Made by a program: the position numbers and the translations under genes
Source of the DNA: Sphingosinicella flava
GTDB taxonomy: Bacteria > Pseudomonadota > Alphaproteobacteria > Sphingomonadales > Sphingomonadaceae
Length of the DNA stretch: 64,000 nt
Direction: 5' to 3'
Assembly (NCBI RefSeq): GCF_016025255.1
Contig: NZ_CP065592.1
Span: forward strand, 1,841,122-1,905,121
Shown: positions 62,701 to 64,000 of the stretch, piece after piece
Numbering within the stretch: position 1 is the first letter of the stretch
Layout of the letters: each line of letters starts with the position of its first letter
Notes under the pieces: model-generated
What the model was told of the DNA's origin: nothing
Database searches by the model: none
Seen by the model: only the letters and a program-made list of their open reading frames with translations

Positions 62701-63891
62701 TCAGCTCTCCCGTATCGCGCCGTTTTCCACCGTCAGCCACGTCGCCCCGGCGCCGACGCTATCGAACAGCGCCCGCTCCGTTCCCGTCATCCACACTTGT
62801 CCGCCCGCGCTTTCGAGCCGGTCGAACAGGGCCGCGCGGCGGGAGGGGTCGAGGTGGGCGGTCACTTCGTCGAGGAGGAGGATCGGCCGCCGGTCCGCAT
62901 GGTCGGCGACGAGATCGGCATGGGCGAGGACGATGGCGAGGAGGAGCGCCTTCTGCTCGCCGGTCGAGCAGGCCTCCGCCGCCTGCCCCTTGGCGAGATG
63001 GGTGACGAGGAGGTCCGTGCGGTGCGGCCCGGCAAGGGTTCGTCCGGCCGCCGCGTCGCGCCCGCGTCCGGCCTTGAGTTCGGCCCGGAGCGCCCCCTCC
63101 GCATCGTCGGCGGGGCGCCAGCCGCCCAAGGCGAGCCCGGCGCGCGCGAACGGCCCTTCGGCTTGCGCGGCCAGCCTTTCCCCGAGCCAGGCAAGCGCCC
63201 GTTCCCGCGCCTCGGCGATGCGCGCGCCATGTTCGGCCATCCCGGCTTCCAGCGCCCCGAGCCAGGCGGGATCGGCCGTTTCGGGTTCGGCCAGCAGCTT
63301 GTTCCGCGCCCGCATCGCCGCCTCGTAGCGGGCGGCATGGGTGGCGTGAGACGGCTCGAGCGCCAGCACCAGCCGGTCGAAGAAGCGCCGCCGCCCCGAC
63401 GCGCCTTCGGTGAACAGCCGGTCCATCGCGGGCGTGAGCCAGAGGACGGAGAGCCATTCACCGAGCGCGGCCGCGGAGGCGGTAGCGCCGTTGATGCGGA
63501 CCTGGCGGCGTTCGGGGGCGGTGGCGAGGGTGCCCGTGCCGATTTCGACACCCCCCTTTCCGTCAGGGGAGGGGCTGGGGGTGGGGCTGGTCGACATCGT
63601 AGGGCTCGCCTCTGCGAGGCTCGCACCCACACCTTGATCCCCTCCCTTGAAAGGGAGGGGAGAAGAAAGACGCGCCGCCACGCTAAAGCCTCCGGCACCC
63701 TTCTGCCGCGCCATTTCCGAAAGGCTGGCACCGCGCAGTCCACGTCCGGGGGTGAGGAGCGATACGGCCTCAAGGATATTGGTCTTCCCCGCGCCATTCT
63801 CGCCGGTCAGCACGACCAGACCCGGGCCCGGCGACAGGACGGCATCGGCATAAGAGCGGAAATCGGTGAGGGACAGGCGGGAGAGGTGCAC
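62701..63891 (-). CDS. recF: DNA replication/repair protein RecF with a repeat-derived insertion
   Basis: RecF loads RecA at gaps with RecO and RecR. The 396-residue protein has Walker [19 protein letters not shown] (residues 29-46), the RecF core [16 protein letters not shown], signature [20 protein letters not shown] and Walker [21 protein letters not shown]. Residues about 76-114 (rich in P, S, G, T) do not belong to the family and are encoded by palindromic repeat DNA in frame. Removing them would join VAARL to [21 protein letters not shown], the normal continuity. It lies upstream of gyrB as expected. Confidence 0.93.
63551..63660. repeat. Palindromic repeat inserted in frame in recF
   Basis: The right end is CCCCTCCCTTGAAAGGGAGG plus GG, a 10-base perfect stem. 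The left end is CCCCCCTTTCCGTCAGGGGA plus GGGG, an imperfect hairpin of the same type, and a central GCCTC/GAGGC hairpin lies between. The design is that of an intergenic repeat, yet here it is read through in recF. Confidence 0.75.
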
Positions 63892-63935
63892 TCCCGCCTC
63901 TTACGCGCCTGCCGGATGCTCGAGCAATGCCTGCC

Positions 63936-64000
63936 GTCACTCCCGCGAAGGCGGGTGTCCGGGAGGGGCCGCTGCCTGCCCGGGCAGCGACTGGATTCCC
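63936..64000. repeat. Partial inverted-repeat element at the window edge
   Basis: GTCACTCCCGCGAAGGCGGG followed by TGTCC, and then CTGGATTCCC at the very edge, look like the left arm and the beginning of the right arm of an element of the same family as that upstream of gyrB. The second arm is cut by the window end. Confidence 0.6.

Follow-up and report, generated by a model that had tools for sequence, protein, structure and literature searches.

An in-frame palindromic element in recF of Sphingosinicella flava, recurrent insertion at one RecF loop among sphingomonads, and DUF559 nucleases as candidate mobilisers

The window analysed here is a 64,000-nucleotide stretch of the Sphingosinicella flava genome (contig NZ_CP065592.1, forward-strand positions 1,841,122 to 1,905,121), and all coordinates below are window positions. 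It contains a recF gene whose product is assigned to RecF by NCBIfam (TIGR00611, 235 bits against a cut-off of 172) and whose coding sequence holds an insertion built of palindromic DNA. The features are as follows, where T1 to T7 are arm-type labels of this analysis, defined by sequence patterns.

62701-63891, minus strand: recF coding sequence, 396 residues with a GTG start (open reading frame list); TIGR00611 RecF, Pfam SMC_N
63553-63666, minus strand: in-frame insertion, RecF residues 76-113 (RecF alignment; filled and empty-site DNA)
63638-63661: perfect palindromic arm with an 11-bp stem and a 2-base loop (hairpin scan)
63621-63637: subterminal linker adjoining the perfect arm (from the sequence); a similar GGGTGGGTGC linker occurs in some DUF559 arms
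63608-63620: central 5-bp hairpin, GCCTC-TGC-GAGGC (read from the sequence)
63575-63589: subterminal G-rich linker, CTGGGGGTGGGGCTG, as in T1 and T2 DUF559 arms (sequence and arm alignment scores)
63553-63574: imperfect arm, CCCCTTTCC-GTCA-GGGGAGGGG, with two G-T pairs (read from the sequence)

The sequence-only reading had described a 39-residue in-frame insertion that breaks RecF family continuity after VAARL. The insertion is indeed in frame, but its size was overstated, the net gain being about 36 residues. Residues 76-113 are extra relative to most sampled RecFs, in which VAARL leads into a (V/D)xIGTGT strand after 2-7 residues. The perfect hairpin reported on one side, CCCCTCCCTT-GA-AAGGGAGGGG at 63639-63660, extends to 11 bp once the next pair is counted (63638-63661), and the imperfect arm and central hairpin that had also been noted are both present. 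The element spans ~112-117 bp, in frame within recF. Because the sister genome G019, whose RecF is 87% identical, also has the insert, an assembly error is unlikely. There is good support for reading the insert as mobile palindromic DNA that recF has captured, in the form of a non-autonomous two-armed element. The encoded peptide is a low-complexity stretch (P, S, G, T), as would be expected from ordinary expansion of a low-complexity loop without mobile DNA; however, the perfect stems, the related copies elsewhere in the genome and the insert-free sites in relatives make such an expansion hardly credible.

The likeness to Rickettsia palindromic elements suggested earlier is right in principle. 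Those elements, in the portion of PMC2229807 available, are 105-146 bp long and lie in frame in conserved protein genes, and one tested product was active; the recF insert is likewise palindromic DNA, of such a size, in frame in a conserved protein gene. The likeness is one of layout; on the other hand, the arms here are GC-rich and of CCCTCCC type, the host is a sphingomonad, RecF is a recurrent same-site target and longer, DUF559-bearing forms exist.

Two further palindromes lie close to the start of the gene. A hairpin with a 9-bp stem (63875-63899, hairpin scan) covers the recF GTG and could affect initiation, or could mean that another start is used. The other lies just upstream of recF (63940-63999) and has a CCGCGAAGGCGG core at 63943.

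The AlphaFold model of RecF has a mean pLDDT of 91.6, and the solved structures that it matches best are those of RecFs (TM-scores of 0.68-0.81, normalised by query length). In this model the insert forms a disordered segment at the tip of a β-hairpin, between strands 69-76 and 115-122, with pLDDT ~45-56 at residues 81-110, which fits the proposal that the insertion is tolerated in a surface loop. Comparison of the S. flava gene (G000) with that of G019 revealed that RecF outside the insert is under purifying selection (dN/dS 0.091 over 358 codons). The insert gave dN 0.217, dS 0.114 and dN/dS 1.9 from only 19 changes in 38 codons, and its pN is three times that of the remaining gene. At synonymous sites the insert has diverged only about one-sixth as much as the rest of recF (0.733), a difference for which DNA-level constraint and conversion between copies are both options.

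Alignment of relatives showed that this loop is filled in some lineages and empty in most. Our RecF set comprised 104 distinct proteins, namely that of the window, 29 search loci and 80 named loci, minus 6 duplicates. At least 20 residues occupy the loop in 17 of the 104 sampled sphingomonad RecFs, a proportion that is not a population frequency because the sampling covered the best-scoring 30 places among 79 genomes with RecF and 80 of 556 named relatives, and because one of the query peptides was derived from the insert. The remaining 87 have shorter loops, of 2-7 residues in 82 and 9-19 residues in five (L012, L019, L021, L022 and L031), so the long loop is not universal among kin. A repeat signature goes with it: 15 of the 17 long inserts, all but L010 and L068, retain a perfect stem 8 bp or more in length. 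Across the 104 recF genes, hairpins whose stem reaches 8 bp number 23 in 4,866 bp of loop versus 54 in 108,090 bp of the rest; palindromes in the loop are more than chance. Filled and empty loops even occur under one species name, S. kyeonggiensis (L106, L097), and the filled and empty sites that were compared are too diverged to reveal a target-site duplication.

The RecF tree requires 10 changes of insert state, with 8 forced by well-supported (starred) branches, versus a mean of 16 for shuffled labels. The long-insert label is therefore clustered, 7 of the 17 falling in a single clade that includes S. faeni and S. aurantiaca, yet it is far from a single origin. The inserts differ by lineage in palindrome type, peptide sequence, length (28-60 residues) and frame, the first arm starting in codon phase 0 in 6 inserts, phase 2 in 9 and phase 1 in 2. 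These data bear on whether one ancient recF insertion was mostly lost and, where retained, re-written by gene conversion from other copies. Such a history would account for the use of one site, for the scar-like short loops (L012, L019, L021, L022) and for the low insert dS over 38 codons, which is expected from homogenisation or DNA-level constraint. By contrast, all three codon phases occur, a phase switch in frame needs compensating indels, palindrome types vary by lineage and empty rows are interspersed among filled ones on a tree that forces 8 changes. We consider a single origin unlikely.

The same comparison speaks to selection on the loop peptide for RecF function, for example as a flexible tether, with DNA repeats being a cheap source of it. 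Recurrent gain at one place would suit this explanation, as would the report that many REP-bearing genes are repair genes (PMC3733652, available in part). However, the peptides vary in sequence, length and frame, the pN of the insert is elevated threefold, and most sampled RecFs do without a long loop, making selection for the peptide improbable. We propose instead that RecF was hit repeatedly because its loop tolerates almost any peptide, so that insertions survive; a DNA target preference may also underlie the repeated hits.

Extra stretches of at least 8 residues outside the loop are confined to 3 of the 104 rows, at three places, near residues 125 (L038), 260 (L035, L038) and 301 (L012). 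The one near 301 in L012 (G013) is 16 residues long and the one near 125 in L038 (G060) 20 residues, each in one row. Within the loop, L053 and L087 carry additional, different palindromes in frame inside the first element.

The expectation of further copies in the S. flava genome was borne out by related copies. A 171-bp query of the recF region found partial matches elsewhere, the best being 48 bp at 92% identity, and no full-length copy of the element. The matches are arm-sized, indicating that arms are common to copies and centres differ. The 2.42-Mb genome contains 65 instances of the pattern CCCTCCC-N3-12-GGGAGGG and 2 of a reversed control pattern. Most of these hairpins are of one kind, T3, and among their listed places are ten pairs spaced 82-121 bp. 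Fourteen two-armed T3 elements of 104-107 bp were found in the stretches of genome examined, and over 36-41 bp their arms share 79-100% identity with the left arm of the genome's T3 DUF559 unit. Were that unit autonomous, this sharing would resemble that of MITEs; the recF element is only T1/T2-like. Its arms (left/right) score 31/38 against T1, 34/39 against T2, 24/27 against T6, 15/20 against T3 and 16/18 against T4, while the T1 arm of the genome's own DUF559 unit scores 19 and 38 against them. As T1 and T2 are matched about equally, no single cognate nuclease type is picked out. By eye, no unpaired GTAG or CGTC tag was seen beside the stems of the recF element or the DUF559 arms.

Three further features lay beyond what the sequence-only reading could see: the recurrence at one RecF site, inserts in other proteins, and arms like those around DUF559 genes. 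In-frame palindromes are also present in UvrA (identified by Pfam), MurD and TruB (both by Pfam and NCBIfam) of the S. flava genome. A genus search over 26 genomes returned matches for MurD in 26, UvrA in 24 and TruB in 25, and by eye the length of the corresponding loops varies among genomes, from short to long. Between the sister genomes, the MurD loop is short in G019, TruB has another palindrome kind in G019, and the UvrA loop holds a T6 element in G019 and a T3 element in G000. The TruB loops (L256-L281) encode LPGTGRGT...GPPPRSGE-like peptides in several genus genomes, with T4 arms by eye; the largest group of typed DUF559 genes likewise has T4 arms. In all, 37 open frames overlie hairpins in the genome, of which RecF, TruB, MurD and UvrA only were taken to Pfam; most of the 37 were, by inspection, taken for shadow ORFs of GC-rich DNA. 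The hairpin of the L137 ORF, presumably dapF-like, looks like chance. Hairpins were also noted on the N-terminal side of ORFs L002 and L143, which we take to be lipoprotein-like and lepB-like, respectively.

Palindromes lying in frame within repair genes and truB have been published before (PMC2229807, PMC3733652). The latter, in the portion available, describes GTAG- and CGTC-tagged REPs inside uvrA, uvrB, recB and truB, with truB copies in E. litoralis and S. alaskensis among others, and two Xanthomonas recB genes hit at about one site; recF is absent from its main text. The elements described here resemble those REPs as palindromes within repair genes and truB, and differ in that their longer forms hold a candidate enzyme gene between arms.

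Hairpin pairs in the S. flava genome enclosed ORFs that were taken for DUF559, and PF04480 was therefore searched. Five genes match, four of them between inverted arms, and DUF559 was found in 25 of the 26 genus genomes. Ninety-four loci were fetched initially, of which 5 were dropped for contig ends, leaving 89 with intact flanks; 1048 sliding placements in other loci served as controls. An inverted-flank score of at least 40 was obtained for 76 of the 89 (median 63) and for none of the control placements (maximum 34), while a score of at least 34 was reached by 80 DUF559 loci and 3 control placements; 13 of the 89 fall under 40. The DUF559 gene of the S. flava genome without matching arms on both sides is L171 (G000:C1:1463944), and its tree neighbours L299 and L304 likewise have none.

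Arm type follows the protein tree. Mapping 7 states on 80 typed rows takes 8 changes versus a shuffled mean of 49.8 (minimum 43, 200 shuffles), and in this tree of only 106 columns T2, T3 and T7 each form one group, unlike T5 and T6. Sorting the 89 loci by outer flanks yields 36 groups, and kinship of loci explains part of the clustering. Keeping one row per flank group (the first, although one group of 13 mixes T1, T5 and T6) lessens this effect and cannot remove it; 7 changes for 6 states on 32 rows still compare with a shuffled mean of 17.4 (minimum 14, 300 shuffles). As the type match holds with one row per group, the DUF559 gene and its arms tend to remain paired across different locations. 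A later set of 29 loci (the 5 dropped plus 24 new) contained a DUF559 match in 28. Judged by eye and not blind, 23 of these have a predicted-type arm no more than 90 bp away on one side or both, L407 has another type, and L399, L400, L401 and L406 have none clear.

The DUF559 protein of L170 matches PF04480 with an E value of 8.8e-39, and E15, L22, Q34, E54, D56, G57, H60, D65 and R81 are invariant in 48 sequences. Against solved structures the DUF559 profile finds 3hrl (endonuclease-like, E 1.6e-35) as the closest, 3r3p (E 3.9e-5), a 'mobile intron protein' that we take to be I-Bth0305I, and, weakly, 1cw0 (Vsr, E 0.069). The last two are the named solved relatives of the profile; no intron or intein was seen at the loci described here, where the gene lies between palindromes.

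Paired inverted palindromes in many copies (the 65 hairpins and 14 two-armed T3 elements) recall REPIN-RAYT and REPtron systems, as does a nuclease gene framed by inverted REPs with many short non-autonomous copies; the enzyme here, however, would be a PD-(D/E)XK protein, DUF559, and not an HUH tyrosine transposase. Indeed, the RAYT profile PF01797 has no match in the S. flava genome at E 0.001, whereas it matches 5 of 14 control genomes, E. coli and Caulobacter among them, and RAYT was ruled out as mobiliser on this ground.

A further question is whether DUF559 is a passenger, with REP-like palindromes spread by another enzyme or by host recombination and DUF559 genes merely located where these repeats accumulate. 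T3 motifs were found in all 8 genomes with a T3 DUF559 gene, and in 8 of the 18 without it; G012 and G022 have 1 and 2 motifs, which may be just the gene's own arms, and five genomes with no detected T3 DUF559 hold 14-27 motifs (for example, 27 in G021 and 20 in G018), as passengers would allow. So would the gathering of REPs in intergenic gaps generally (PMC3733652, in part) and the prediction that the Caulobacter DUF559 protein VsrA is a mismatch-repair endonuclease (PMC12907096, in part). The separation of DUF559 loci from control placements in inverted-flank score, the agreement of the arms with each other and with protein clade, which persists when each flank group is reduced to a single row, and the missing PF01797 match all stand against it. 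We regard a passenger role as possible but doubtful. Outside Sphingomonadaceae the association weakens, with inverted arms at 13 of the best 30 phylum-wide loci, and for this reason it is not claimed to be universal; two plasmid loci have low scores, 28 for L422 (Azospirillum) and 18 for L425 (Sinorhizobium).

A second nuclease family occupies one of the same genomic slots. Of 25 genomes compared at the yqeY-dnaG gap, 9 have a DUF559 unit there, 7 a GIY-YIG ORF, 4 a spacer of just 15-25 bp and 5 other DNA, and in none are DUF559 and GIY-YIG found together. The GIY-YIG ORFs are L343 (G019; PF01541, E 1.2e-16), L347 (G006), L352 and L358-L361. Their inverted flanks score 30-60, with two at 30, under the control maximum of 34, and TCGTCC(C/T)GAGC is common to six of the loci, whereas the seventh, L343, has the adjoining GCGAAGTCGAGGGGCGCT. 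Because the loci are orthologous, the seven cases amount to close to one observation. A GIY-YIG gene elsewhere, on a plasmid record (L424), scores 33 with a similar core, and Sphingomonas parapaucimobilis YK209 (L423) has DUF559 in the slot with T1-like arms (score 58).

The explanation that we favour, and consider probable as a whole, is that a palindromic mobile insert is tolerated in a RecF loop and that DUF559 acts as the mobiliser. A palindromic element of a group common in sphingomonads, with two inverted arms, G-rich linkers and a short centre, would have entered recF in the DNA for a β-hairpin tip and been kept as it was in frame and harmless. Longer elements, in which arms of the same kind enclose a DUF559 gene (PD-(D/E)XK, Vsr/I-Bth0305I-like), would be the autonomous form. 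The nuclease may recognise its own hairpin-arm type and cause both forms to be copied or relocated; a nick at an extruded hairpin followed by repair synthesis is one possible route. Movement by DUF559 is the best available idea, suggested by the association and the matching types, and no link between DUF559 and palindromic repeats was met in the literature searched, whose coverage was mostly short of full text.

More broadly, palindromic repeats of sphingomonads might be moved not by transposases but by small site-specific nucleases, comprising DUF559 subfamilies with their own arms (seven types were distinguished within one genus) and, in a shared intergenic slot, GIY-YIG proteins with a CGTC-containing palindrome, a generalisation that we hold tentatively and regard as close to an even call. 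If it is true, the RecF, UvrA, TruB and MurD inserts would be by-products of spread by nucleases, and CGTC-type repeats, for which no dedicated transposase was found according to the available part of PMC3733652, could be served by a nuclease of their own. DUF559, and secondarily GIY-YIG, are candidate enzymes for palindromic repeats, and a mobile-element reading is thereby offered for a family whose function Pfam still gives as unknown. In sphingomonads, one protein loop has repeatedly taken in mobile DNA, and the emergence of new protein segments can be traced there event by event.

At two DUF559 loci, L173 (G000:C1 ~1735013) and L292 (G019), the DUF559 frame runs stop-free through an arm, giving a 443-codon open frame, and the gene that it reaches is presumably thiL.
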